Positions 30,729 through 47,783 of a DNA stretch of 64,000 nucleotides are shown here, one piece after another. A program made the position numbers and the translations under genes. Below the pieces are notes generated by a model. It was not told where the DNA came from. It saw nothing but the letters and a program-made list of their open reading frames with translations, and searched no databases. Source of the DNA: Paenibacillus terrigena DSM 21567 (GTDB lineage Bacteria; Bacillota; Bacilli; Paenibacillales; Paenibacillaceae); assembly GCF_000374845.1 (NCBI RefSeq), contig NZ_KB895419.1:248001-312000 (forward strand), in the 5' to 3' direction. Numbering within the stretch: position 1 is the first letter of the stretch; every line of letters starts with the position of its first letter.

Positions 30729-31073
30729 ATGGGTCGAGTTGTATTATTTGAATTAAGTAGTCAAGATCCGGAACGTACTGCAAGTTTTTATTCGTCTGTT
30801 TTAGGGTAGAAGATTGCTGAGCCTAACTGGGGATATTATTCAGGAAATAATGATAAGCCAGGAATTAATGATGGGATTTCTAAGGGGTCAAATGACTCTC
30901 CACACGGAACAAGAATTCAAATAGAAGTTGAGAGCATCGATGATGCAATAAATAAATCATTAGAACTTGGAGCGCAAGTTTTAAGAGGTAAGATGGAATT
31001 TGATAATTTTTATCTTGCTTACTTAGTTGACCCGGTAGGGAATGAAATTGGATTAATTCAAACTATTAATTGA
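30729..31073 (+). pseudogene. VOC (glyoxalase/bleomycin-resistance fold) gene with a premature TAG
   Basis: Translated in one frame it reads as a VOC protein of about 114 codons: MGRVVLFELSSQDPERTASF, then YSSVLG, stop, and after the stop KIAEPNWGYY... YLAYLVDPVGNEIGLIQTIN. The stop is TAG at 30807-30809, exactly where VOC proteins usually have Trp; a TGG to TAG change explains it. The fold and the DPxGNEIGL end are clear. GGGGGAC upstream is a weak ribosome site. A single nonsense change suggests recent inactivation. Confidence 0.8.
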
Positions 31074-31142
31074 TTTTTTAGATTATAGGCAGAGAAGATA
31101 ACAACATGACTTTGAGAGAAAATTCGATGAAGGCCTTGGCAT

Positions 31143-31293
31143 CAGATAACACTGTGTTCCCGCTTCGGGGCTTACGTGAAGCAATTCGAGGAGGCGAATT
31201 CAGGCAGACAACCCTGTGAGGCTAGTAGAAGAGCCACCTGTCGCTGGTGCTCCCTTAAGCCTCTGTGGATCGGGAAATCAACAACATTATCTG
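31143..31293 (+). repeat. attC-like repeat 1
   Basis: 151 bp bounded by CAGATAAC and ATTATCTG (inverted, 7 of 8). It has the family words CGGGGCTTA and CAGGCAGACAACCC, an AATTCG/CGAATT inner hairpin, and a final CTTAAGCC arm with GGGAA before the core. It lies between the first VOC relic and the VOC copy at 31341. The preceding lead-in, GATGAAGGCCTTGGCATC, is the upstream block shared by most copies. Confidence 0.85.
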
Positions 31294-31340
31294 AAACCAG
31301 TGTAACAAACTATAATAAATATTTTAGAGGCGAGTTCAAG

Positions 31341-31715
31341 ATGGAAAGAGTAAAAATATCTGGACCTACAATGATCTTACTTGTAAGAGATATCGAAAAA
31401 TCAATTGAATTTTTATAAGAGACTTGGATTTAGTTATGAACTAGTCGAGGTCCGGACGTACAACATGTACATATGAATAGAGATTCTGTTACATTTATAC
31501 TCCATCCAGCAAAGAATCCTGATGATGTGAAACCATTCTCATCGGTTGATGGTGGATTATATTTTGATGTATTCTGCTATACAGATGTTAGATCGCAACT
31601 AGAGGAATTTAGAACTAAAGGAATAGATATAGTTAAAGGGCCTGATTTAAATGACTTTTTTAGTGAATTTACTTTTCAAGATATTGATGGGTACAGAATA
31701 TCATTTGGTGGATAA
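31341..31715 (+). pseudogene. VOC gene, broken duplicate of the 37661 gene
   Basis: Nearly identical to the intact VOC gene at 37661-38035, with matching flanks. It has one extra T near 31416 (five T instead of four) and one missing G near 31447, which shift the frame and expose a stop between them. It therefore does not encode a full protein, although the last 80 codons are in the original frame. See the duplication finding. Confidence 0.92.
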
Positions 31716-31787
31716 TTTTATTTTAAACATTAGAGATTTGATTATTAATAAAGAACTCTGTTAGTAATTCGAAGAAGGCACTGGCAT

Positions 31788-31953
31788 CATATAACACTGT
31801 TATCCTACTGCGTCGCTTTCGCTCCTTAGTCTGCCCGAGGATTTTCGAAGAAGTGAAATCAGGCAGACAACCCTACGAGGCTAAGTGGCGGAGCCACCTA
31901 GTCGCTACGCTCCTTTAAACCTCTCGGGTTCAGGAACACAAAAACGTTATACG
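31788..31953 (+). repeat. attC-like repeat 2
   Basis: 166 bp bounded by CATATAAC and GTTATACG (7 of 8 inverted). Inside are TCTGCC/GGCAGA, a GAGGCTAAG arm, the hairpin GTGGCGGAGCCAC, and CCTCTCGGGTT. It sits between the broken VOC copy and the histidine phosphatase gene, which begins 39 nt after the core. Confidence 0.85.
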
Positions 31954-31991
31954 AAATGTGGCGAAACCAATATAAAAAAATTAGGAGGCTT

Positions 31992-32531
31992 ATGAAAATT
32001 GGATTAGTAAGACATTTTAAAGTTACATATAGACCTGATTCTAAATGGATGACATCTGAACAATTCAATCAATGGGTAGACCAATATAATAAATCTGATA
32101 TTACACCAACGATACATAGTAGTAATGACCTGAATTGGGGTGTATGTCTTTCAAGTGATTTATCAAGAGCAATTAAAACAGCTGAAATTATGTACCAAGG
32201 CAATATAATTAGAACCAATCAACTAAGAGAAATAGGAATTCGGTCGGTTATTCAATCAAGAATCAAATTACATTATAGTATTTGGTTATTTATGGGTCGG
32301 GTGGCTTGGTACTTCTCACATAAGTCACAGGAGGAAAGTAGAGATGAAACATTATTAAGAGCAAGGTATGTCATTAATAGGCTAGAGACATATGAAGAAA
32401 CCAATGTATTAGTAGTAAGCCATGGGGCTTTTATGAAATCTCTAAGTAAAGAATTAATTCGAAGAGGATATAAGGGGAAGGGCTTTATAAAACCCAGAAA
32501 CGGAAGACTCTATACATATGAAAGACGATGA
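31992..32531 (+). CDS. Histidine phosphatase (phosphoglycerate mutase fold)
   Basis: 179 residues, cassette-borne. The N-terminal LVRHFKV holds the catalytic RH, though the common RHG reads RHF; the second His is in VVSHGAFMKSL. The Arg of SSDLSRAIKTA and the acidic middle region also fit histidine phosphatases. It probably removes phosphate from a small metabolite or a phosphoprotein; substrate unknown. AGGAGG is only 3 nt before the ATG, a tight spacing. An attC-like repeat lies on each side. Confidence 0.85.
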   Translation: MKIGLVRHFKVTYRPDSKWMTSEQFNQWVDQYNKSDITPTIHSSNDLNWGVCLSSDLSRAIKTAEIMYQGNIIRTNQLREIGIRSVIQSRIKLHYSIWLFMGRVAWYFSHKSQEESRDETLLRARYVINRLETYEETNVLVVSHGAFMKSLSKELIRRGYKGKGFIKPRNGRLYTYERR

Positions 32532-32564
32532 TTTTGAAAGTTAACTTGAAGAAGCACCACACTA

Positions 32565-32718
32565 CATCTAACATTTTCCTGCTGCGGGGCTTTCTCCCCT
32601 TGGTTTCCCCGAGGCATTTCGGGGAAGGGGATACAGGCAGATAACTCTACACCGCCCAAGTCCGTCGGACCCGGCGCTTAGGGCGGAAAAGGGTTCGGGA
32701 ACATAACAACGTTATGTG
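32565..32718 (+). repeat. attC-like repeat 3
   Basis: 154 bp bounded by CATCTAAC and GTTATGTG (6 of 8 inverted). It keeps the shared GCTGCGGGGC word but its stems have other sequences: TTCCCCGA/TTCGGGGAA, CCGCCCAAG paired with CTTAGGGCGG, and GTCCG/CGGAC. These replace the arms of other copies by compensating changes. Confidence 0.88.
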
Positions 32719-32769
32719 AAAGGAATGCAGTATAAACTATAAGACCAATAAAAAGAAATGTAAGAACGC

Positions 32770-32798
32770 TTGTACGTAGATGTAAATAAAGGTAAAAT
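32770..32798 (+). promoter_or_regulatory. Promoter of the holin-like toxin mRNA
   Basis: TTGTAC (32770-32775), 17 nt, and TAAAAT (32793-32798). A start near 32805 would give an mRNA of about 258 nt to the terminator at 33063. Confidence 0.62.
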
Positions 32799-32826
32799 AT
32801 AACTACAATTGAATCTTGGGTGGGCA

Positions 32827-32855
32827 TGGTTTCCCTTCGAAAGGAGGTGAAGCCA
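32827..32855 (+). promoter_or_regulatory. Hairpin sequestering the toxin Shine-Dalgarno
   Basis: TGGTTTC plus CCTT pairs with AAGG plus GTGAAGCCA around a short loop, burying the AAGGAGG (32841-32847). Such sequestration limits toxin translation in several type I toxin mRNAs. Confidence 0.55.
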
Positions 32856-32950
32856 TGGAAATGAAAGATGCATTAACGATTATGTTCCTATTTGGATCAT
32901 TTATTCTTGCTCTTTTAACTTACATCAATAATAGCAACAAGAAAAAGTAA
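32855..32950 (+). CDS. Small holin-like type I toxin candidate (31 aa)
   Basis: A 31-residue peptide MEMKDALTIMFLFGSFILAL continuing LTYINNSNKKK: one hydrophobic membrane segment and a Lys-rich tail, as in the short 'putative holin-like toxin' peptides of Bacillota (Hol_Tox, TxpA/BsrG-like group). AAGGAGGTGA lies 7 nt upstream. It would depolarise or damage the membrane when freed of antitoxin. An antisense promoter lies downstream on the other strand and a sequestering hairpin covers the Shine-Dalgarno. The module lies between array repeats 3 and 4. Confidence 0.75.
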   Translation: MEMKDALTIMFLFGSFILALLTYINNSNKKK

Positions 32951-32987
32951 AACCCACCCTAAGATTGATAGCCGAAGGTGGGTTTTG
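32951..32987. terminator. Bidirectional terminator at the toxin stop codon
   Basis: AACCCACC / GGTGGGTT stem with TTTT to the right and a T-rich run to the left on the opposite strand. Confidence 0.75.
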
Positions 32988-33035
32988 ATCCTTTGTGACC
33001 TAGAAGGGAATAAACCATCCAAGCCAATTGTACTG

Positions 33036-33063
33036 ACCAAGTGTTCACAGCACTTGGTTTTTA
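33036..33063 (+). terminator. Second terminator of the toxin mRNA
   Basis: ACCAAGTG / CACTTGGT stem followed by TTTTATT. Confidence 0.78.
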
Positions 33064-33160
33064 TTAACTATATAATAACACATGTAAAAACATGTATCAA
33101 AACAATATTGTAAAGAAATATAAATGACTTAAGAAAGTAAATCAAGGAATGCATCCGCAT

Positions 33161-33323
33161 CAACTAGCACCGTTTTCCCGCTGCGGGGCTTACGCCCCTT
33201 GGTCTGCCAGAGGTAATTTGGTGAAGTAGATGCAGGCAGAACCCTGCAAGGCTATGATGAAGAGCCACCCGGCAGCAAGCTGCCTTAAGCCCTTCGGGTT
33301 CGGGAACATAACAACGCTATACG
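33161..33323 (+). repeat. attC-like repeat 4
   Basis: 163 bp bounded by CAACTAGC and GCTATACG (inverted TAGC/GCTA core). It contains GGGGCTTACGCCCC, TCTGCC/GGCAGA, and a GGCAGC-AA-GCTGCC hairpin. It stands between the toxin module and the PPP phosphatase gene, whose start follows by 30 nt. Confidence 0.82.
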
Positions 33324-33352
33324 TACCGCGAGACTTTTTATGGAGGTTATAC

Positions 33353-34009
33353 ATGGAGCTATTAGTAGTTGGTGATGAACATGGTTGTTATCATACTTTT
33401 ACTAAGTTAATTAATGAGCATTGGAATAGTGGGAAACAGATCTTAGTGCAACTAGGTGATTTAATGGATAGAGGGAAGTTCTCTCCTGAGACAATTTTAT
33501 ATGCGATTGAATTACAAAAGAACAATCCCGAAAAGGTATATTTTCTTAAAGGAAATCATGAGATTGAAGTTGTTGTTCATTTAGAAGAAGGAAATGAGAA
33601 TTGGTTAAAACAATGTGGACAAGAGACATTAAATCAATATAAAAGAAAATCATTAGATCTAGTTCACTATATTTCTTGGTTGAAATCTCTACCTCTGTAC
33701 TATGAAACGGATCATGCCTTTATCAGTCATGCAGGTATTTCTTTGGTAGCAGAAAACCCATTTGAAGAATCTCATCCAGAAAGCGTCTTGTGGAATAGGG
33801 GACAACTAAAAAATATTGGTAAACTGCAGATTATTGGGCATACTCCTTGTAAATCAGATAGGGCAGAATTTGATAGTGTAAGCAATACTTTGAATATAGA
33901 TACAGGGGCATATCTTCCTAAAGCGCTTACAGCCGTAAAAATAAATGATGAAGGTAGAATAGATGAAATAATATTGGTACCTACGCTATCTGATGATGTA
34001 ACCGATTGA
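33353..34009 (+). CDS. PPP-family metallophosphatase
   Basis: 218 residues with the full PPP motif set: GDEHG (for GDxHG), GDLMDRG, GNHE, and HAGIS, plus IGHTPC near the end. Such bacterial proteins act as protein Ser/Thr phosphatases or as diadenosine tetraphosphatases (PrpE-like); sequence does not decide. Two metal ions are expected in the active site. GGAGG lies 6 nt upstream of the ATG. It is the gene of the cassette that follows repeat 4; no repeat separates it from the next gene. Confidence 0.88.
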   Translation: MELLVVGDEHGCYHTFTKLINEHWNSGKQILVQLGDLMDRGKFSPETILYAIELQKNNPEKVYFLKGNHEIEVVVHLEEGNENWLKQCGQETLNQYKRKSLDLVHYISWLKSLPLYYETDHAFISHAGISLVAENPFEESHPESVLWNRGQLKNIGKLQIIGHTPCKSDRAEFDSVSNTLNIDTGAYLPKALTAVKINDEGRIDEIILVPTLSDDVTD

Positions 34010-34115
34010 AAAGATATTCTAAGTTCATAGTAGATTCATAGACTATTCAAATTTTGATGAGTAAATTAAATGATGAATTTTTGAGGATTCCGTATCTGAG
34101 AAAGGACGTATATCG

Positions 34116-34862
34116 ATGATGACACAAAAAGAAATGATACACATCGTACAATCACAGCTTGCAATTGACCTAAACTGTACAATTGACGACTTGAACAGAG
34201 AAAAAGACAGTGTAATTTTTGTAGACGCGAAAGAAAATCCCGGACGCAGGCCGTATCCGAGAAAAGAGCGATATTTTGAAATTTTGTCCATGGGCAAATC
34301 AATTGTGGTATCGGCTACGCCGGAACGACTGTCTATTGCCAAAACGCATATGCAAGGAAAAGATAGGGATTCGATATTTTCATTACCATTTATCAGAGGG
34401 TTATACCTGCATTTTCTTCCTGATCTAGAGAAATTAAAGCCAATGTCACCACCTGCAAATTTTTCATATGAAGTGGTTGAGAAGGATGAGGTTCCCAAGC
34501 TATTGGGGCTTAAAGGATTTGATAATTCAATTATAACTGACATGAATCATCCCTATCATACTGTATTGGTCGTACTTGCCAAGAAAAATAGTAAAATTGT
34601 TGGCATGGCAGGGGCATGTAATATATGTACAAAGATGTGGCAAATTGGTATAGAGGTACTACCTGAATACCGTCAATTTGGTTTGGCAACTTATCTTGTA
34701 AACAGCTTAACTTTTGAAATATTAAATCGTGGTCGTGTTCCAATTTATGATGTCATCTCAAGCAATATTGCCTCTCAGAGAGTAGCTTACCGGGTAGGAT
34801 ATTATCCGGCGTTCGTGACTGATTGGCGAGTTGATTTTAAGGATTTTGAAACTTTATCTTAA
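34116..34862 (+). CDS. GNAT acetyltransferase with long N-terminal part
   Basis: 248 residues. The C-terminal 110 residues are a GNAT domain (MWQIGIEVLPEYRQFGLATYL, with R-x-x-G-x-A in place of the R-x-x-G-x-G/A pattern, then ASQRVAYRVGYYPAF). The first 120 residues are a separate domain without a known motif. It would acetylate a small molecule or protein with acetyl-CoA. AAGGAC upstream of the ATG is a modest ribosome site. No array repeat lies between it and the phosphatase gene, so the two may form a two-gene unit or the repeat has been lost. Confidence 0.83.
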   Translation: MMTQKEMIHIVQSQLAIDLNCTIDDLNREKDSVIFVDAKENPGRRPYPRKERYFEILSMGKSIVVSATPERLSIAKTHMQGKDRDSIFSLPFIRGLYLHFLPDLEKLKPMSPPANFSYEVVEKDEVPKLLGLKGFDNSIITDMNHPYHTVLVVLAKKNSKIVGMAGACNICTKMWQIGIEVLPEYRQFGLATYLVNSLTFEILNRGRVPIYDVISSNIASQRVAYRVGYYPAFVTDWRVDFKDFETLS

Positions 34863-34923
34863 AAATATGTGTGCACGTACGTAAAATGTCTTTTCAGGAT
34901 TTGTTTAAACTAAAACATTTCCT

Positions 34924-35043
34924 ATGGAAACTGGCTTTTTTCCATTCGAAGAAGCAATAATGATGGTCACCTTTATGAACTTCAGAGAAAGAAATGAAAA
35001 GAGTATAAAGACAGAGGGAGCACCGGTCTATGTAGAGTTTTAA
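34924..35043 (+). other. Unassigned 39-codon open stretch, possible gene remnant
   Basis: The gap 34863-35098 has an open stretch METGFFPFEEAIMMVTFMNF, then RERNEKSIKTEGAPVYVEF and a stop. There is no ribosome site and I do not recognise it. It may be the tail of a lost cassette gene. Confidence 0.22.
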
Positions 35044-35098
35044 ATAAAGATGAAAGTTGATGTAAGTAACACATAGAAACTCATAAAGGATGATAAGA

Positions 35099-35563
35099 AT
35101 GCGGCAACGCGCTCAGGCAATTATTATTAGAGATAGAGCAATGTTATTTGCATATGGAATTGTGTCCAGCAACAATGAATTACGTCATTCCTTTATTGGT
35201 GGTGGAATAGAACAAGGTGAAACTCCAGAGGAAGCAGTGTTAAGAGAACTACGGGAAGAAGCACATATTGAAGGTCGAATTATCTTTAAGTTTAATCGTG
35301 AAATAGTTGAGAATCATCATACGTTCTTAATTCATATAGGGAATCAGAGTTGTAGGTTAGGAACAGATCCAGAGGAAGAGCACCTAGCATTAGAGGAGCG
35401 AAATCTTAAGGATCTGATTTGGATATTATTTGAGGATAGACATTTATTTACTAGTATTGACAAAGAGTATATCGAAAGGCTAATTGAAGAATGTAAAGAA
35501 AGGGAATATTATCCCGAGTGGATAGATGATATACAAGAAATTAGCTTGCCATTCAGACCATAA
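35099..35563 (+). CDS. NUDIX hydrolase
   Basis: 154 residues with a Nudix box G-GIEQG-E-TPEEAVL-RELREEAHIEG. The catalytic RELREE core is intact, but the box's last Gly is replaced by His, so substrate range may differ. Nudix enzymes hydrolyse nucleoside diphosphates linked to another moiety. The ATG at 35099 has AAAGGA 8 nt upstream; the earlier ATG at 35090 does not. A degraded repeat follows it. Confidence 0.88.
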   Translation: MRQRAQAIIIRDRAMLFAYGIVSSNNELRHSFIGGGIEQGETPEEAVLRELREEAHIEGRIIFKFNREIVENHHTFLIHIGNQSCRLGTDPEEEHLALEERNLKDLIWILFEDRHLFTSIDKEYIERLIEECKEREYYPEWIDDIQEISLPFRP

Positions 35564-35604
35564 ATAAGAATTAATAAGAATAGTGAAAGAGTGACTTAGA
35601 TAAC

Positions 35605-35657
35605 TCGAAGAAGCAACTGACTTCATCTAAACCGTATCTACGCGGTGGGCGTGCGGG
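35605..35657 (+). repeat. attC-like repeat 5, 5' part only
   Basis: The lead-in TCGAAGAAGCAACTGACTTC and CATCTAA then ACCG match the 5' part of the repeats, but sequence diverges before the inner stems and runs into the cupin relic. Confidence 0.6.
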
Positions 35658-35671
35658 GGATTATAGGATCG

Positions 35672-35895
35672 CATAAGGCTACAGTAGATCAATATCAACT
35701 CTTTTTAGTCCTAATGGGCAAGGGTGGACAATAGGTAAGGAAGGGAAAAGATATGATATTTGATCTGGTAACGCAGCATATTGGGAGCCTGGAGAGATAC
35801 ATGAATCGGGATCAGAACTAGGAATGACAGTAGTCGTAATTGAAGGTGAGAATCTAAAACCACTAATGAATGAAGTAGAATGGATGGAGAGTTGA
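35672..35895 (+). pseudogene. Cupin-domain gene with frameshift and stop
   Basis: Read in two frames it gives HKATVDQYQLFLVLMGKG, then (shifted one base) TIGKEGKRYDI, stop, SGNAAYWEPGEIHESGSELG and MTVVVIEGENLKP. This is a small cupin: the G-x-A-x-W-x-x-G-x-x-H metal motif is intact. One missing base near 35727 and an in-frame TGA break it. It was probably a cassette gene that has decayed; it stands between repeat remnants 5 and 6. Confidence 0.78.
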
Positions 35896-35995
35896 TTCGA
35901 AAAAGCGTTGCGGCTGGACTCTTCGAGTCGCCTCGCTCGGATTGAATGTGAGAACCTTAAGCCTTTCGGATTCGGGAAGGCAATAACGTTATTTG
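35896..35995 (+). repeat. attC-like repeat 6, shortened
   Basis: Begins just after the cupin stop, with GATTCGAAAAAGCG, has a GACTC-TTC-GAGTC hairpin, and ends with CTTAAGCC, TTCGGG and a GTTATTTG core. The 5' AAC box and first stems are missing. Confidence 0.72.
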
Positions 35996-36043
35996 AAATA
36001 GCCGTAAAACCAAAGAATCTTAAGAATTAAGGAGATGATTCAC

Positions 36044-36511
36044 TTGACCATCACTACTGAGATTGTAAACATCAAGAAATTGAATATTCTAGGCATTCCT
36101 TGCAAAGGTCTCACTAATATGGGTGAAAAAGTTGGAAATGCAGTAAAAGAATTAATGGAACACGTCAAAGACGTAAAAACATGGAATGGAAAACCTTGGT
36201 TTGGTGTTTTTCAACCATGTCCTGAGGAAGTGGAGAATGAAGAACTAATCTATTTTGTATGTATAGAGACTGAAGGGTCAATTGTGCAAGGAAACTATCC
36301 AGGTGGATTACAACAAATAACAATTCCTGAACAACGATACATGGTGATTCATAAGGGAAAAGATGATTCTATTAAAGATGTATACAGTGGACTCAATAAC
36401 TTCTTAATCGAGAGAAATGAAGTACAGAACAGTGAAAGTCATTGCTATATTCTCGAATTCCCAGTTGATGAATTGTGGGAATCAATTCAAGTATATGTCC
36501 CAATTAAGTAA
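36044..36511 (+). CDS. GyrI/Cass2-like effector-binding protein 1
   Basis: About 155 residues with the fold pattern of AraC-type effector-binding (GyrI-like) domains: IKKLNILGIPCKGLTN, a WFGVFQPC middle strand, FVCIETEG, the IPEQRYMVIHKG turn, and a VYVPI end. Stand-alone members include Cass2, found in an integron cassette and classed as integron-associated effector-binding protein. They bind small, often cationic molecules. The start is a TTG at 36044, with AAGGAG 9 nt upstream; the ATG at 36035 touches the AAGGAG. Two more homologues occur in this array. Confidence 0.78.
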   Translation: MTITTEIVNIKKLNILGIPCKGLTNMGEKVGNAVKELMEHVKDVKTWNGKPWFGVFQPCPEEVENEELIYFVCIETEGSIVQGNYPGGLQQITIPEQRYMVIHKGKDDSIKDVYSGLNNFLIERNEVQNSESHCYILEFPVDELWESIQVYVPIK

Positions 36512-36616
36512 AGTTGGTCAACTCTTGGAAGTTTGGTATCAAGGTAGTGTCGATACTTCATATCCAGCTCAGGCCGGAGCAAAGAAAGTGGAAATTATTG
36601 AGGAACCGAGGTGATT
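36512..36616 (+). pseudogene. Unassigned gene tail after the first GyrI-like gene
   Basis: Translated in the next frame the segment ends WYQGSVDTSYPAQAGAKKVE, then IIEEPR and a stop. It looks like the C-terminal end of another protein, of family unknown to me. No start or ribosome site precedes it. It may be the end of a cassette gene left by recombination. Confidence 0.4.
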
Positions 36617-36619
36617 ACT

Positions 36620-36691
36620 TTGAGTGATTAAATTCGTGAACTGCGATCATTAGTAGGAACCATGCCCCTTATTTTAGTCGGTTCGGTAGTA
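36620..36691 (+). pseudogene. Remnant of a NUDIX hydrolase N-terminus
   Basis: TTG AGT GAT TAA then IRELRSLVGTMPLILVGSVV: this is the start of Nudix proteins of the (M)xYIxELRxLVGxRPLIxxG type, with a stop at the fourth codon. The rest of the protein is absent. Confidence 0.55.
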
Positions 36692-36742
36692 AGGTTAAAG
36701 GCAAACTTCAAAAAATTCAATAACCATGAACAGGAGTAATAA

Positions 36743-37444
36743 ATGAAGAAAATTGGTATTATCGCGGCTTGGGAGCCTGAACTTCAATATTTGTTAAAGC
36801 AATATGAACCAATAAAAACTGAAACAGTTGCTGCATGGACTTTTTATACTCATCAGTTAGCCGATTTACATATTATTTCGGTAGTAGCTGGAGTCGGAAA
36901 GGTCAAGACAGCTAGTTGTACACAATTACTGATTACTAATTATTTTCCAGAAGAATTATATATGACCGGAATATGCGGAGGGTTATCAGAAGAAGTTAGC
37001 GGTGGAGATATTATTATTGCAGAAAAAACGATACAACATGACGTTACAGACGCTGGTATCTCTAGTGACCCATTGGATGCATACTTGGGAAGAAGTAGTA
37101 TAATTGATTCAACTCAAGAGATCATTTCTATGTTTAAAGAATTTACAAAGAATACTGCAGAGCGAGTACATTTTGGAACATTTGTTTCGGGCGATCAGCG
37201 AATACGTGATAATGAATTAAGCTACAAGCTGATGACAGATTTTGCAGCGATTGCAGTGGATCAAGAACTGGCAGCTTTTGCTCATGTTTGTTATCTAAAC
37301 AATATTAATTTTATGGGTCTTAAATCAGTATCAGATAAAGCCAATACAAACACCATAAATGATCAAAAGCTGTTCATACAAAAAGCTTGTATAAACTCTT
37401 GTAAATTAATAATTGATTTTTTAGATTATAGGCAGAGAAGATAA
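36743..37444 (+). CDS. MTA/SAH nucleosidase-like protein (PNP/UDP phosphorylase fold)
   Basis: 233 residues. It has the fold's GVGKVKTA, the CGGLSEEVSGGDIIIAEKTI strand, FVSGDQRI, and VDQELAAFAHVC with the conserved Glu, then SDKA at residues 210-213. The catalytic region resembles methylthioadenosine/S-adenosylhomocysteine nucleosidase, but the MEG motif is changed to DQE, so the substrate may differ. AGGAG precedes the ATG. Its last codons (IIDFLDYRQRR) recur at 31066-31110 in the other copy of the duplicated unit. Confidence 0.83.
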   Translation: MKKIGIIAAWEPELQYLLKQYEPIKTETVAAWTFYTHQLADLHIISVVAGVGKVKTASCTQLLITNYFPEELYMTGICGGLSEEVSGGDIIIAEKTIQHDVTDAGISSDPLDAYLGRSSIIDSTQEIISMFKEFTKNTAERVHFGTFVSGDQRIRDNELSYKLMTDFAAIAVDQELAAFAHVCYLNNINFMGLKSVSDKANTNTINDQKLFIQKACINSCKLIIDFLDYRQRR

Positions 37445-37485
37445 CTACAAGACTTTGAGAGAAATTTCCCTGAAGGCCTTGCATT

Positions 37486-37613
37486 AGATAACACCGTGTT
37501 CCTGCTGCGGGGCTTAGCAGGCAGACAGTCCTGTGAGGCTAAGTGGCAGCGCCACCCGGTCGTGCTGGTGCTCCCTTAAGCCTCTGTGGATCGGGAAATC
37601 AACAACGTTATCT
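37486..37613 (+). repeat. attC-like repeat 7
   Basis: 128 bp bounded by AGATAAC and GTTATCT, a perfect 7-bp inverted pair. It has GCTGCGGGGCTTAG, then goes directly to GTGAGGCTAAG, hairpin GTGGCAGCGCCAC, and TTAAGCC, lacking the middle stem. Near-duplicate of repeat 1. Confidence 0.88.
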
Positions 37614-37660
37614 GAAACCAGTGTACAAACTATAATAAATATTTTGGAGGCGAGATCAAG

Positions 37661-38035
37661 ATGAAAAGAGAAAAAATATCTGGACCTACAATGGTCTTAC
37701 TTGTAAGAGATATCGAAAAATCAATTGAGTTTTATAAGAGACTTGGATTTAGTTATGAACTAGTCGGAGGTCCGGACGTACAACATGTACATATGAATAG
37801 AGATTCTGTTACATTTATACTCCATCCAGCAAAGAATCCTGATGATGTTAAACCATTCTCGTCGGTTGATGGAGGATTATATTTTGATGCATTCTGTTAT
37901 ACAGATGTTAGATCGCTACTAGAGGAATTTAGAACTAAAGGAATAGAAATAGTCAAAGGGCCTGATTTAAATGACTTTTTTAGTGAATTTACTATTCAAG
38001 ATATTGATGGGTACAGAATATCATTTGGAGGGTAA
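37661..38035 (+). CDS. VOC family protein (intact copy)
   Basis: 124 residues with the VOC fold: MVLLVRDIEKSIEFYKRLGF at the start and DIDGYRISFGG at the end. The VOC metal-binding positions are not all obvious. Members include glyoxalases, dioxygenases and antibiotic-binding proteins; substrate unknown. GGAGG lies 10 nt upstream. It is the intact partner of the broken copy at 31341-31715. Confidence 0.87.
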   Translation: MKREKISGPTMVLLVRDIEKSIEFYKRLGFSYELVGGPDVQHVHMNRDSVTFILHPAKNPDDVKPFSSVDGGLYFDAFCYTDVRSLLEEFRTKGIEIVKGPDLNDFFSEFTIQDIDGYRISFGG

Positions 38036-38052
38036 TTTTACTTAAAACATTA

Positions 38053-38124
38053 CTAAGTGGGCGGAGCCACCCGGTGACAAACGTCGCCTTAAGCCTCTCG
38101 GGAACGCATGAACGTTGGCTACGG
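38053..38124 (+). repeat. attC-like repeat 8, 3' half
   Basis: CTAAGTGGGCGGAGCCACCC, then GGTGAC/GTCGCC, CCTTAAGCC, TCGGGAAC and AACGTTGGC. The 5' half is missing. It begins just after the VOC gene. Confidence 0.68.
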
Positions 38125-38147
38125 TAAGAACATAAGGGGATAAGCAA

Positions 38148-39014
38148 ATGAAAGAAACAAGGGTATATAAGCAAGCAAATAACTGCTCAATAAGTGCTGA
38201 TATTTATTACCAAGGTGCTGATTCGCCAGTAATTATATATATTCATGGAGGTGCACTAATTTTTGGCACCAGAACATGGTTACCTTTTGAACAAATCGAG
38301 TATTTTACAAGTTCCGGATTTAGTATAGTCAACATTGATTACCGACTGGCACCAGAAACAGAATTTGAGTTTATTATTGAAGATATAAGAGATGCGATTG
38401 AATGGGTAAGAACAAAAGCAATTGAATGGTATGATTTTGATATCAATAATATTGCAGTAATGGGCAGCTCAGCAGGCGGGTACCTTAGCTTATTAACTGG
38501 AACAATGGATGTCAAACCCCAGGCCATTGTCTCTTTTTACGGTTATGGAGATATTCTAGGTGATTGGTACTCTCAACCGAGTGAGTTCTACTGCAAGAAG
38601 CCAATGATTAATAGAACTATGGCCTCTGAGTCTATAGGAAATATAGAAGTGACTACAGGTGTATGGGAAAGATTTGATTTTTATCTTTATTGTCGTCAGC
38701 AAGGTGTCTGGGTGCAAGAAGTAACTAGATTTAATCGTAATAAAGATTCTGATAATTTAATTAAGTATAATCCAATTAATAATATCTCTGAAGATTATCC
38801 CCCTACATTATTTCTTCATGGTGATCAAGATACAGATGTTCCATATGAACAATCTGTTCTCATATATGAGAAGCTTAAAGAAAAGGGAGTTTACTCTAAG
38901 CTAATTACTATAGAAGGCGCTGATCATGTTTTCGATCATAATTTTAACGACCCTACAATTCAAAGAGCTTTTATGAATGTTGTTGAATTTCTAAGAACTC
39001 ATTTATGTAAGTGA
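38148..39014 (+). CDS. Alpha/beta hydrolase, hormone-sensitive-lipase/esterase-like
   Basis: 288 residues with the HGGALIFGTR oxyanion motif (HGG), GSSAGGY nucleophile elbow, and a C-terminal Asp-His pair in DQDTDVPY and ADHVFDH. This is the pattern of the HSL-type (family IV) carboxylesterases, though the middle is unusual. It would hydrolyse a small ester or lactone in the cytosol. AGGGGATAAGCAA precedes the ATG. It lies between repeats 8 and 9. Confidence 0.86.
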   Translation: MKETRVYKQANNCSISADIYYQGADSPVIIYIHGGALIFGTRTWLPFEQIEYFTSSGFSIVNIDYRLAPETEFEFIIEDIRDAIEWVRTKAIEWYDFDINNIAVMGSSAGGYLSLLTGTMDVKPQAIVSFYGYGDILGDWYSQPSEFYCKKPMINRTMASESIGNIEVTTGVWERFDFYLYCRQQGVWVQEVTRFNRNKDSDNLIKYNPINNISEDYPPTLFLHGDQDTDVPYEQSVLIYEKLKEKGVYSKLITIEGADHVFDHNFNDPTIQRAFMNVVEFLRTHLCK

Positions 39015-39053
39015 TTCGAAGCAGCACCGCACTTCAGCCAGCATCATTGTATC
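39012..39053 (+). repeat. attC-like repeat 9, 5' fragment
   Basis: GTGATTCGAAGCAGCACCGC and CTTCAGCCAGC follow directly on the hydrolase stop and match the lead-in of the other repeats. The 3' half is absent and a GNAT relic follows. Confidence 0.5.
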
Positions 39054-39185
39054 TTTCCTGAATATCGAGGGCAAGGATATTGGGTAGAAGCTGCGAAATA
39101 GTGTTGAAGTATGCTTTTGAAGATTGGAATGCGATTAAAGTGGTTGCTATATTTATTATTATTCACATTAATGGAGGTTTATCTA
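39054..39185 (+). pseudogene. GNAT-domain remnant
   Basis: A 15-codon piece FPEYRGQGYWVEAAK ends at a stop; in a shifted frame LKYAFEDWNAIKVVAIF follows. Together this is the acetyl-CoA loop (R-G-Q-G-Y) and next helix/strand of a GNAT acetyltransferase. The rest is gone. Confidence 0.62.
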
Positions 39186-39635
39186 ATGTTGAAACTAGAA
39201 CCAGCAATAAAAAATGATGCACAAAAACTCGCTGAAATACAAAAGATCAGCTTTGATGAAGAATCTAAACATTTCAATAATAACGAAATCGGAGGTCCAT
39301 TTGGATACGATTCTATAAGTTGGCAAGAAGAGATGATGCAAAATTGTGAATATTTCAAGGTACTCTTTGATGGAGAAATAATTGGGGGGGCTTTGATATT
39401 TATAGGAAACAATCAAGTACATAATCTAGGAAGAATTTTTATTGATCCGAACTTTCAGAATCAAGGAATCGGTATTAAAGTTATGAATGAAATTGAAAGG
39501 ATTTTTCCGGATAGCAACAAATGGTGGCTTGATACTCCTAGCTGGTGTGTCAAGAATCATCACTTTTATACAAAGTGCGGATACACCAAAGTTAGAGAAG
39601 AAGATGACTTATACATTTTTGAGAAGACTTTATAG
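39186..39635 (+). CDS. GNAT family N-acetyltransferase
   Basis: 149 residues. The GNAT core is VHNLGRIFIDPNFQNQGIGI, with Q-x-x-G-I-G as the acetyl-CoA loop, and KNHHFYTKCGYTKV near the end. Substrate unknown. GGAGG lies 8 nt before the ATG at 39186; the open frame extends 25 codons upstream but that part is the GNAT relic read out of frame. It is a cassette gene. Confidence 0.88.
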   Translation: MLKLEPAIKNDAQKLAEIQKISFDEESKHFNNNEIGGPFGYDSISWQEEMMQNCEYFKVLFDGEIIGGALIFIGNNQVHNLGRIFIDPNFQNQGIGIKVMNEIERIFPDSNKWWLDTPSWCVKNHHFYTKCGYTKVREEDDLYIFEKTL

Positions 39636-39762
39636 ACTAATTGTTTGATGGAACTTTCAGGGAAGGCACAGTCATCGTTTAATAATGTATCACGATGCGT
39701 CCGTTGGATCTGGGAACGCCAGAAGTGACGTCATTGAATAAATCAATTTGTAGGTTTCTTAA

Positions 39763-39875
39763 AGCAACTCACGCATATCCGCCTTGCGGCTTCTCGGTCC
39801 GCCAGAGAGATTTCGAGGAAGCAGAATCAAGCTCATGCTCTACCTAACCATATCGCGTTCAATCACCTACGGATT
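39763..39875 (+). repeat. attC-like repeat 10, degraded
   Basis: AAAGCAACTCACGCAT, CCTTGCGGCTTCTCGGTCCG, CCAGAGAGATTTCGAGGAAG and CAGAATCAAGC resemble the 5' and middle blocks of the family. The 3' end has lost its GTTAT core. The rest of 39636-39902 shows nothing I recognise. Confidence 0.5.
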
Positions 39876-39902
39876 AAAAACTATTGAAGGGTGACGAGAA
39901 TT

Positions 39903-40511
39903 ATGGGTTCAAGAATAATGCACGTGATTATTGCTAATAGAATTGCAGAGTGTCTGTCGATGGAAGATAGAACACCGTTTTTATTTGGAAGCATTGCTCC
40001 AGATGCTGTTTCAACAAAAGATCTATCACATTTCTTTAAAGGTGAAGTACGAGATTATTCAAGGTTCATTGATTATAAAGGATTTTTACATAAATATAGC
40101 TCGCTAGTAGAAAGCCATTATGTATTGGGGTATTTTACACATTTAATAGCTGATGATATATGGCTCAAAGGTTTTAATCTTTCTTGGTTAAGAAACAGAA
40201 TGGAAGTTAATAAAGAATTATATCGTTCGTACCATAATGATTTCCGATTACTCAATGGGAAATTACTAGAATACTATGGATTTACAGATGAATTGAGGAA
40301 AAAGCTCAGTTATCTTCCTACAATCATTGATCTGCAAGAGGTAAAGTCCAAAGAAGTTGAAGAATTCATTCCTTATGTTTTAGGTGATATGGAGTACGAT
40401 AACGAAGTTTTACATGAAAAACTTAATGTTTTTACGTTTGATCAGATAATTGGTTATATAGAGACATCAGTTGAAATAGGGCTATTGAATATAAAACCTA
40501 TACTAACCTAA
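39903..40511 (+). CDS. Zinc-dependent phospholipase C-like / HD-like cassette protein
   Basis: About 202 residues. The opening MGSRIMHVIIANRIAECLSM, FLFGSIAPDAVSTKDLSHFF and YVLGYFTHLIADDIWLKGFN, with several conserved His/Asp residues, are those of the zinc-dependent phospholipase C-like family in Bacillota. Metal binding is likely; phospholipase activity is not shown. The start is the ATG at 39903; a GTG at 39891 is possible. AAGGGTGA is the probable ribosome site. It ends 33 nt before the next GyrI-like gene, without a repeat. Confidence 0.75.
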   Translation: MGSRIMHVIIANRIAECLSMEDRTPFLFGSIAPDAVSTKDLSHFFKGEVRDYSRFIDYKGFLHKYSSLVESHYVLGYFTHLIADDIWLKGFNLSWLRNRMEVNKELYRSYHNDFRLLNGKLLEYYGFTDELRKKLSYLPTIIDLQEVKSKEVEEFIPYVLGDMEYDNEVLHEKLNVFTFDQIIGYIETSVEIGLLNIKPILT

Positions 40512-40544
40512 TATTCAAGAATCATTTTGAAAGGGGGATCGTCT

Positions 40545-40994
40545 ATGAATATGAATAACGAAGTTGAAGTTGTACAATTACAAGAAAAGAAATTTGTTGG
40601 AGTTGCAGTGACTTCCGCATTTGCAAACCATGATCCAAGACGAGTTGAAGAAGCAAAGCATGTTTTCTTAATTCGGAAAGATGAAATAACGGGAATTATT
40701 AACCCATTAGAATACGTTTGTTTGAGCTTTACATCAGAGACATTGTTTACATATCTAATTTGCATGGAAGTAACGGAACTGAAAGAAGTTCCAGCTGGCA
40801 TGCTAGGATTCTCAATCCCTGCTCATAAATACGGGAAAACAAGATCAGAAGATGATCCATATGCAGCAATACATCATTATTTACAAGAGAATGAAATCAG
40901 CAATAACAAGAGAGCAATGGCCATAGAAGTCTATAAATTTGAAGACCCACAGTGGCCTAACAATGTAGATGTTTATATTCCAATTGAAGAATGA
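40545..40994 (+). CDS. GyrI/Cass2-like effector-binding protein 2
   Basis: 149 residues with the same layout as the protein at 36044: VQLQEKKFVGVAVTSAFANH at the start, LICMEVTELKEVPAGMLGFS, a PAHKYGKTRSED turn and a DVYIPI end. It is a distant paralogue of the other two and suggests binding of a small ligand. AAGGGGG upstream is a good ribosome site. Confidence 0.78.
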   Translation: MNMNNEVEVVQLQEKKFVGVAVTSAFANHDPRRVEEAKHVFLIRKDEITGIINPLEYVCLSFTSETLFTYLICMEVTELKEVPAGMLGFSIPAHKYGKTRSEDDPYAAIHHYLQENEISNNKRAMAIEVYKFEDPQWPNNVDVYIPIEE

Positions 40995-40999
40995 TTCTG

Positions 41000-41062
41000 A
41001 TTTGGAGATACCGCCGACCTTGGATGAGGTGATATGGGTCGGGAATTCAACAACGTTATATG
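41000..41062 (+). repeat. attC-like repeat 11, 3' end
   Basis: GGGTCGGGAATTCAACAACGT then TATATG matches the conserved 3' end of the family. The 5' part is missing or changed beyond recognition. It separates GyrI-like genes 2 and 3. Confidence 0.65.
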
Positions 41063-41114
41063 AAAGTAATGCAAAGCATTGAGAACAATATCAACGAAAG
41101 AGAGAGTGAGTCCT

Positions 41115-45121: not shown

Positions 45122-45153
45122 AAATTGCATGAAATACATATTTCACGCAATTT
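45122..45153. repeat. 32-bp inverted repeat upstream of the tyrosine recombinase
   Basis: AAATTGCATGAAAT and ATTTCACGCAATTT around ACAT are near-perfect inverses (one A/C mismatch). It lies 156 nt before the recombinase start. It could be an operator, a recombination site or a structured 3' end. Confidence 0.6.
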
Positions 45154-45308
45154 CATTTTAAATAAACTTTTTTCATATTATAATAGGGATTAATAGGTTT
45201 ATATTTTCGCGAAATTAGAGGATATTTGTCATTTTTTCCAGATAGATGGAAGAATTCAATTGCGCTGATGCAATGAAAAAATACATAAAAAGAAGAGGAG
45301 GGGATTTC

Positions 45309-46247
45309 ATGACACTCACGCAATATGACCTTATTGAGGCATACAGTCTCGAGTTAGAATTATTTTCGATATGGATGAAAAACCAAGGGATGTCGAAATC
45401 GACGCAGTCGGCGTATATGAGTGATGCTCGTAGTTTTCTCAAAGGAGTCTATCCGGCGGAACTGTCGAAACTGGGTAAGATGGAGATTATGCGATTCTTG
45501 TCAGTTACACGGGAGCGAGGAGCGGGAGATGAAGCGCGAAATCGTAAACTTTCATCACTCCGGGCTTTCTATAAATCGTTAAATGAGATGGAGCATTTAC
45601 AAGTCAATCCTGCTGCATCGGTCGCGAAATCGAAACAGGTAAAGAATCGGATCCCGACATATCTGGAAGAGAACCAGCTCTATCAATTTTTTGATCGGGT
45701 GGAAGGCAAATATCATAACCGCAATATGGCGATTTTGCTTCTTATGGCTTTTGCCGGTTTGCGTGTTGGAGAGATCCATCGTATGAACACCCAAGATCTA
45801 CATCAAGACGGATCCATTCACATTCTTGGAAAAGGACGCAAATGGCGCGTCATCCCGCTTCCCACCGAACTGCATCAGATTCTGATACGTGCGCAAGAGG
45901 AGCGGCGAGCCCCAAACCAAGGGAAAGAGCAGGCATTCTTCATCTCACAATTCGGTCGTCGATTATCCATCCGCATGATCCAGACGATTGCAGACCAGAC
46001 GTTCGAGAAACTGAAAGAACAGCTGCCTGAGCTAGTAAATATGCGATTATCGAGTCATAAGCTGCGTCATTCGTTCGCGACAATGCAAATTCGAAGCGGG
46101 ACGGACATACGGACACTGCAAGAATTGCTCGGTCATGCAAGCATTGAAACGACACAAATTTATACGCATATTGATAATAAACAGATGAAGATGGCGATGG
46201 ATAAATTTTCAGGGAAAATACCTACGGTGGGTACATCGAATAAATAA
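45309..46247 (+). CDS. XerC/D-like tyrosine recombinase
   Basis: 312 residues. All catalytic residues of the tyrosine recombinase family are present: Arg152 in AGLRVGEI, Lys175, His250 and Arg253 in SSHKLRHSFAT, His276 in LGHASIE, Tyr285 in IYTHI. The N-terminal 110 residues are a SAM-like core-binding domain. The spacing is like XerC/XerD; I see no insertion typical of integron integrases. It has GAGGAGGGGA 5 nt upstream. A dif-like site directly follows the stop, and a near copy lies 0.9 kb away, so these may be its targets. Confidence 0.9.
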   Translation: MTLTQYDLIEAYSLELELFSIWMKNQGMSKSTQSAYMSDARSFLKGVYPAELSKLGKMEIMRFLSVTRERGAGDEARNRKLSSLRAFYKSLNEMEHLQVNPAASVAKSKQVKNRIPTYLEENQLYQFFDRVEGKYHNRNMAILLLMAFAGLRVGEIHRMNTQDLHQDGSIHILGKGRKWRVIPLPTELHQILIRAQEERRAPNQGKEQAFFISQFGRRLSIRMIQTIADQTFEKLKEQLPELVNMRLSSHKLRHSFATMQIRSGTDIRTLQELLGHASIETTQIYTHIDNKQMKMAMDKFSGKIPTVGTSNK

Positions 46248-46249
46248 TA

Positions 46250-46275
46250 ACATAATAAATGTTATGTAAACTAAT
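46250..46275 (+). repeat. dif-like site, left copy
   Basis: 26 bp ending TTATGTAAACTAAT. The 11-nt arm TTATGTAAACT is identical to the right arm of B. subtilis dif. The left arm (ACATAA at its inner end) is partly the inverse. It begins 2 nt after the recombinase stop. Confidence 0.62.
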
Positions 46276-46334
46276 AAAGCGAGAAATAAAACAAGGAGCC
46301 TAAGTTAGGGAAGAAATGCCCAAGATCATTACTT

Positions 46335-46666
46335 GGATCAGACGAATTAGTCCTATTCTAGATGATGAGTGGCAAATCTGCTGAATTTCATATTCGAGCC
46401 TTGGAAGATAGTGAATGCTGGACATTCTCATACGATACATTGCAAAAGATGTACAACCGAGATGCATGCTGAAAACGATTTGAAGAAGGCTGGCAGAACG
46501 ATTGTAGATGAAAAAAAGAAGAACGTGAAGGTGAATTTATTGCTCTGTTCAGCAGAGCAACGTTCCTGTATAATTATACATTTACAAACTGGACTCATGC
46601 AATAATCCCACAATATCATATTGCATTTTATCTAGGTAGTACCTCGGTTGCATGAAGCCGAATTCG
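46335..46666 (+). pseudogene. Crp/Fnr-like regulator, decayed
   Basis: One frame, interrupted by several stops, reads GKSAEFHIRALEDSECWTFS, YDTLQKMYNRDAC, stop, then ... IPQYHIAFYLGSTSVA, stop, SRI. These are the cAMP-binding-fold end, the dimer helix and the winged-helix start of Crp/Fnr proteins. It is clearly not functional. Confidence 0.72.
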
Positions 46667-46787
46667 TCACTGTATGAAATAAAATTAATGAAACAATCGC
46701 CGTTTGGTCATAACGTAGTGGAAGGGCTTCTCAGTGAAACAATGGTTTCTGGGAAGCGACACACTTTCGGGGGCTGAATGGGTAGGG

Positions 46788-47047
46788 AATTCAGATCATA
46801 CCGTACTTATAGCCGGTTGAGCAGCAGGCATCGAGTTAACGCTTAGCAAAAGGTGGTATGGAAATGGCATTCGGGTGATTGACTTGGGAAGGGATCTATT
46901 GAATCTAAACAATTACAACAGGAGCAACCGCAAGTCGTAACAATCACCTGTGATCTTGAGGATAAAGTTCAATGGGACGAACTAATTCGAAGCATTTATT
47001 TACACCATCGGGATATTAGTGTCGTTGTTAATCATACGGAAATTTAG
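46788..47047 (+). pseudogene. SDR (DltE-like) N-terminal remnant
   Basis: HTVLIAG, stop, AAGIELTLSKRWYGNG, IRVIDLGRD, then after a one-base shift LQQEQPQVVTITCDLEDKVQ, WDELIRSIYLHHRDISVVVN and HTEI, stop. It has the beta-alpha-beta nucleotide fold start up to the place of NNAG, with one stop and one frameshift. Confidence 0.72.
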
Positions 47048-47146
47048 TATAATTATTCATTGTTGGATGAGGTCAATTCGCGAGACACTGAGGAAATAGA
47101 ATTGATTCATAGGGTGGCTCTTTAAGAATGATTTGTAATATAAGAA

Positions 47147-47172
47147 ACATAATTAATGTTATGTTAACTAAT
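47147..47172 (+). repeat. dif-like site, right copy
   Basis: 26 bp matching the left copy at 24 of 26 positions, in direct orientation, with the right arm TTATGTTAACT. The 46276-47146 interval between the sites holds only the two decayed genes. Confidence 0.6.
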
Positions 47173-47236: not shown

Positions 47237-47566
47237 ATGGCAGATATAGAAGATTTTCTGAAATTAGATATGCGAGTAGGAACTATCCTGCAAGCGGAAC
47301 CATTCCCAGAAGCCCGTAAACCTGCAATAAAATTAACCATTGATTTGGGCGATCTAGGGATTAAGCAATCATCGGCTCAAATTACTAAAAGATATGAACC
47401 TGAACAACTGATTGGCCGTCAAGTGATCGCAGTCGTAAATTTCCCACCAAGACGCATTGCAGGATTCAAATCGGAGGTATTGGTGATTGGCGGTGTGCCC
47501 GAGGAAGGTGATGTGGTACTCTTGCAACCTGATCAACAGGTACGGAATGGTACACCAATCGCGTAG
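47237..47566 (+). CDS. csaA: CsaA, tRNA-binding-domain chaperone-like protein
   Basis: 109 residues, the usual CsaA size, with the EMAP/OB-type tRNA-binding domain: [40 protein letters not shown] and [20 protein letters not shown]. CsaA is a secretion-related chaperone that also binds RNA. AGGAGG precedes the ATG. It stands alone between the recombinase region and the thi operon. Confidence 0.92.
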
Positions 47567-47651
47567 CGTGGAGGACTTGATATTCTCCATGAAAATTTAT
47601 CCTATTCAACAAAGAAAGATTGTGCTATATTGTTGGTAACTTGATAAGCAA

Positions 47652-47741
47652 TACACACTAGGGGAGCCTTTTAAGGGCTGAGACGGATCTTCCGGACCCT
47701 TCGAACCTGATCTGGTTAATACCAGCGTAGGGAAGTGTTGA
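47652..47741 (+). promoter_or_regulatory. TPP riboswitch (THI box)
   Basis: Clear aptamer blocks in order: GGGGAGCC, GGCTGAGA, GACCCTTCGAACCTGATCTG, GTTAATACCAGCGTAGGGAA, and a closing GTGTT stem. It lies before the thi operon and would turn it off when thiamine pyrophosphate is bound. Confidence 0.96.
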
Positions 47742-47783
47742 GGCTCGCTTCATCCTTTTTAGGGTTTATTCATGAAGCTTGAC

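Follow-up and report, generated by a model that had tools for sequence, protein, structure and literature searches.

The tyrosine recombinase gene rec of Paenibacillus terrigena DSM 21567 probably forms a single-recombinase dimer-resolution module. Next to it lie terminus sites at which a catalytically degenerate XerD would dock, probably to unload SMC complexes. Both parts fall in the window, by which we mean the whole stretch of 64,000 nucleotides analysed here, so that two different Xer arrangements would lie side by side in the replication terminus. The catalytically complete rec would act on a cognate site at 45124-45151 and would most likely resolve chromosome dimers by recombination between the copies that the two sister chromosomes carry; rec homologues on plasmids would do likewise for plasmid dimers. 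The two dif-like sites that the earlier note had reported downstream of the gene, together with a third 31 kb away, are most likely docking sites for XerD, and the best-fitting role for XerD bound there would be to unload SMC complexes at the terminus. What we observed directly are the positions and motifs of the sites, their conservation, the covariation of site and protein, the catalytic residues and the chromosomal location. From these we infer, as the most likely assignment, which protein binds which site, dimer resolution by rec and SMC unloading by XerD. The corrected picture is apparently that of a variant single-recombinase Xer/dif system combined with a dismantled XerCD-dif system.

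The recombinase and the palindrome upstream of it

The gene rec (45309..46247, + strand, with an open frame that begins at 45246) encodes an XerC-like tyrosine recombinase of 312 aa. It scored 197 bits against the NCBIfam XerC model, under the equivalog cut-off of 335, and 101 bits against the XerS model, for which the cut-off is 267. The full R-K-H-R-H-Y catalytic set is present and, lysine included, is invariant in 26 of 26 orthologues. Orthologues were found in 33 of 59 relatives, and the named relatives with close homologues are almost all Paenibacillus. Among the 36 Paenibacillaceae genomes rec occurs in 21 and is absent from 15, and one further relative (G036) combines rec with CodV, XerD and dif; rec is therefore no obligatory replacement. 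Strict vertical inheritance was considered and rejected, as agreement of rec with DnaA was just moderate (rho 0.29) and with XerD little. A tblastn search also located homologues of the protein on 12 plasmids, most of which come from Paenibacillus.

Upstream of the gene, at 45124..45151 (+), lies a 28-bp palindrome of 11-6-11 architecture, ATTGCATGAAA-TACATA-TTTCACGCAAT, which is our candidate dif of rec. The earlier note had overlooked this palindrome, which extends to 32 bp (45122-45153) and is nearly invariant among close relatives. Indeed, a general palindrome scan revealed a strict 11-6-11 palindrome upstream of rec in most rec clades, and a position-weight scan returned one strong match per locus, always upstream, in 47 of 49 rec loci, the flank being just 1.5 kb in the two loci that had none. 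The distance from rec to the site is mostly 60-300 bp and in some loci 1.5-10 kb, and the retention of the site so far from the gene argues against a mere operator. Site scores were about 20-33 compared to a best score of 13.1 in 1 Mb of unrelated control loci, in a scan whose matrix had been trained on many of the same loci; the plasmids, which were not used in building the motif, matter as an independent test for this reason. On 7 of 7 rec-bearing plasmids examined the site was found upstream of rec, at a distance of 73-470 bp and with scores of 19.8-28.6.

The site is unique within the 380-kb contig that holds the window (C8), within 400 kb of the congener G001 and within the complete 115-kb plasmid pHD01; the remainder of contig C8 gave no second copy. 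The arms of the site covary with the rec protein (rho 0.42, reached in 0 of 1000 permutations), and the spacers do so weakly. The arm consensus is ANTGCRYDWAA, with XerC-like arms on both sides, and it resembles GGTGCGCATAA, which we take to be the XerC arm of E. coli dif. Searches of viral, plasmid and phage sequences with the 28-bp site gave no convincing copies; plasmids carrying diverged versions came to light in the search with the rec protein instead.

Such an arrangement has precedents. A dif site adjacent to the recombinase gene has been described as a hallmark of single-recombinase systems, being found in XerS/difSL and XerH/difH (PMC5357621), and the dif of the XerL/dif system of Legionellales lies at the terminus (PMC9765430). 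Like these three systems, the rec module has one complete tyrosine recombinase and a terminus site of about 28 bp that is almost a palindrome, and as with XerS and XerH the site stands beside its gene. Unlike them, rec is an XerC-like protein of about 312 aa and not an XerS, its site carries XerC-like arms on both sides, and it coexists with a degenerate XerD and occurs on plasmids as well. If the proposal is true, the rec/site module adds a single-recombinase dimer-resolution system in Bacillota that serves plasmids too.

The 115-kb plasmid pHD01 (NZ_CP013204, L322-L324) carries rec with its site and also an XerS gene; three XerD-type sites lie no more than 5 kb from rec. It has chromosome-like genes such as fumC and bioB as well, and it looks like a segment of a chromosome terminus. 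Its XerS is a true XerS (378 bits), and since this rec-bearing plasmid also encodes it, XerS may stand in for rec elsewhere.

XerD-type palindromes at the terminus

The dif-like site right after the recombinase stop, AACATAATAAATGTTATGTAAACTAAT at 46249, was confirmed, as was its second copy at 47146 (93% identity, direct orientation); the two are indeed Xer/dif-type sites beside an Xer-like recombinase, as the earlier note had said. Both have the 11-6-11 dif architecture, their right arm being the XerD arm TTATGTWAACT. Site 1 (46245..46272, +) reads TAATAACATAA-TAAATG-TTATGTAAACT, begins on the rec stop codon and scored 37.6, and site 2 (47142..47169, +) reads AAGAAACATAA-TTAATG-TTATGTTAACT, lies upstream of csaA and scored 37.2. 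The claim of a dif-type right arm also held, and TTATGTAAACT is the right arm of canonical dif in CodV-bearing relatives too.

The interval between the sites (46273..47141, +) is non-coding and contains faint traces of a short-chain dehydrogenase and a Crp/Fnr-type regulator. The relics proposed earlier are thus plausible but weak: the Pfam matches stayed below threshold for both adh_short (E 0.03) and cNMP_binding (E 0.045). To the right, the conserved neighbour csaA (47237..47566, +; 198.8 bits against NCBIfam CsaA, cut-off 171) holds the same place in the congener G001. There the outer two sites are also at the same places, one on the rec stop and the other directly in front of csaA. An extra site lies between them, and the counterpart of the interval could not be aligned with 46273-47141. 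An ordinary TPP riboswitch (47650-47750) precedes the thiamine genes further on.

The pattern CATAA-N6-TTATGTNAACT has exactly three exact matches in the 6.36-Mb draft genome, compared to 0 matches at 0 mismatches in a reversed control. The three share an orientation and all lie on contig C8, where the third, at C8:325767, is beyond the window; the probability that three random points fall within 31.5 kb is about 7e-5. This third XerD-type site of the genome, some 31 kb from the reported pair, occupies C8:325761-325788 of G000 (L014:15762) and lies upstream of a histidine kinase gene; it is adjoined by an inverted repeat, TGTGATAAACATCACA, that looks like a Crp/Fnr-type box.

We then searched the 59 relatives for the symmetric form AGTTWACATAA-N6-TTATGTWAACT with up to 3 mismatches. 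The palindrome, both arms of which equal the XerD arm of canonical dif, was found in 40 of them at 1-5 copies per genome, with controls near zero. In Paenibacillaceae it was present in 31 of the 36 genomes, namely 18 of 21 with rec and 13 of 15 without, and the sites therefore do not depend on rec; they occur in some other families of Bacilli as well. In seven complete relatives the sites, rec or both map to 0.45-0.55 of the genome as measured from dnaA. The GC skew of G001 reverses at about 1.82 Mb, and the sites, at 1.861 Mb, are 40 kb from that point. Both the rec locus and the cluster of XerD-arm sites are thus placed at the terminus by dnaA distance and GC skew. G036 and G039 have CodV and an asymmetric dif of canonical type, ACGTCCGATAA-TATATA-TTATGTAAACT or close to it, and in these two genomes the XerD-type palindromes occur alongside dif and no farther from it than about 80 kb and 4 kb, respectively.

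Spacers of sites in the same genome were identical in 1 of 40 pairs, where 1.4 would be expected, and were no closer than those of between-genome pairs; selection for dissimilar spacers within a genome was not found. An XerD-type site follows within 70 bp of the rec stop in 13 of 41 loci, compared to 0.21 expected, and downstream of rec the canonical arm is distal in 17 cases versus 2, although in both counts the loci are related and are not independent events. This enrichment and orientation hint that rec may also use, or be controlled from, XerD-type sites.

In P. gorillae four XerD-type sites (L148:10938-11082) follow right after the rec stop at an exact pitch of 39 bp, with unrelated linkers. 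In G013, which has no rec, the terminus DNA around two XerD-type sites (L313, 1.65-1.67 Mb) consists of small accessory genes, mostly on one strand, among them APH, GNAT, GrpB, kinase and methyltransferase genes.

XerD in a family without CodV and canonical dif

To our knowledge, XerCD-dif is regarded as nearly universal. At E<=1e-75, however, Paenibacillaceae genomes show no more than a single XerC/D-family protein, namely the XerD orthologue (in G006, G012 and G024 XerD itself falls below this limit), and no CodV (XerC), that is, no second XerC/D-type protein, was found in the 36 family genomes. The true dif, which the earlier note had proposed to locate, was sought with up to 3 mismatches: a canonical asymmetric dif was present in 0 of the 36 genomes and in 7 of 13 CodV-bearing relatives. 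Moreover, all 36 Paenibacillaceae XerD proteins lack the catalytic lysine K172, which all 13 XerD proteins of CodV-bearing relatives have. These counts are phylogenetically non-independent, and a single ancestral loss with subsequent drift is likely. In the family this alignment position shows S, P, A, G, T, N, L, M, R, E or a gap. The sequences were aligned on E. coli XerD, which supplies the numbering and whose residues fall at the published numbers. The remaining catalytic residues, R, H, R, H and Y, are for the most part conserved, so that residual catalysis by XerD is possible; the corresponding lysine has been called essential in XerH (PMC5241119).

In B. subtilis, XerD has been described as a sequence-specific unloader of SMC complexes at the terminus (PMC12322038; PMC13220808). 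That XerD is never lost in Paenibacillaceae and the terminus sites are kept, while a catalytic residue and the partner are gone, fits a DNA-binding role. As in B. subtilis, XerD-arm sites are clustered at the terminus and XerD is always retained; compared with that system, binding and unloading by XerD in Paenibacillaceae are predicted from sequence. The family resembles the CodV-RipX (XerCD-dif) system of B. subtilis in having an XerD orthologue, and the reported sites in carrying the XerD arm, but it differs in having neither CodV nor canonical asymmetric dif and an XerD without K172. More tentatively, we suggest that XerCD-dif has split in Paenibacillaceae: XerC and dif would be gone, and XerD would be kept as a catalytically dead terminus binder that unloads SMC at homotypic XerD palindromes. 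Where dimer resolution is present, it would have been taken over by a new XerC-like single recombinase that has a homotypic dif to itself, and this module is also found on plasmids. If true, the loss of XerC and dif, alongside an XerD that lacks the catalytic lysine yet is never lost, would amount to a natural separation of recombination and SMC unloading, and the SMC-unloading job of XerD would become testable by comparison and not by mutation alone.

Alternative readings and neighbouring features

The TTATGTWAACT palindromes might instead be working dif sites in redundant copies, recombined by XerD alone or by XerD with rec on the rec-proximal arm. Their dif architecture and terminus location, their enrichment and orientation next to rec and the tyrosine that XerD keeps would all agree with this, but dif is normally unique per chromosome (PMC3025954) and the genomes here hold 1-5 palindromes each. 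The missing K172, the distinct site that accompanies rec, the coexistence of the palindromes with canonical dif in G036 and G039, and the lack of an XerD-type site near the plasmid rec modules, pHD01 excepted, further argue against it, and we regard it as unlikely. Very improbable, in our view, is that both kinds of palindrome are ordinary regulator operators, the one upstream of rec being autoregulatory. Although they are palindromic and intergenic, and in most loci the palindrome upstream of rec is close to the gene's promoter, a regulator's operators would have to account for the strict 11-6-11 spacing with Xer arm sequences, for clustering at the terminus and not over a regulon, for arms that covary with rec, and for a site retained up to 10 kb from the gene.

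The least probable reading, to which we give very little credence, is the one proposed in the earlier note, which saw here either a Xer (pdif-like) cassette with decayed cargo or an element that had inserted itself at a dif-type site. Gene relics bracketed by two direct sites suggested it, and an interval unrelated to that of G001 would agree; pdif/Xer cassettes and dif-integrated elements (IMEX) do have paired dif-like sites. In those systems, however, spacers match and cargo is mobile, whereas the spacers here are unmatched (TAAATG versus TTAATG, in line with the 1 of 40 identical pairs within genomes), no mobile cargo was seen, and the sites are conserved in family members without the recombinase, 13 of the 15. 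The sites therefore make poor attL/attR or cassette boundaries, as attL and attR are expected to share a core. The recombinase, moreover, lies outside the bracketed segment and has a different site of its own upstream, and the positions of the outer two sites are conserved in G001. An element with attL and attR was rejected on the spacers together with the absence of a second rec-site copy from contig C8. Replacement of the interval was likewise dropped as a sign of cassette exchange: unconstrained DNA is unalignable anyway at the divergence of G001, so neutral divergence explains the observation equally well.

A functional link between the recombinase and the attC-like array 4 kb away, also raised earlier, found no support. 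Unlike an integron integrase, rec is under the IntI family cut-off (128.8 bits versus 265), which none of the six further Xer-like recombinases of this genome reached either, and the attC-like element profile had no matches in the other rec loci retrieved. In the array itself (31121-41077), seven attC-like elements are interspersed with small genes that share a strand (glyoxalase, GNAT, NUDIX, Cass2 and others), and one glyoxalase cassette is duplicated, at 31060-31732 and 37403-38052, with 91-95% identity. Another attC-like element of the genome (L086:2561-2756; contig C5, about 316.7 kb) stands beside a decayed tyrosine recombinase, and one in G036 (L116:744-960) lies about 0.5 kb from canonical dif.
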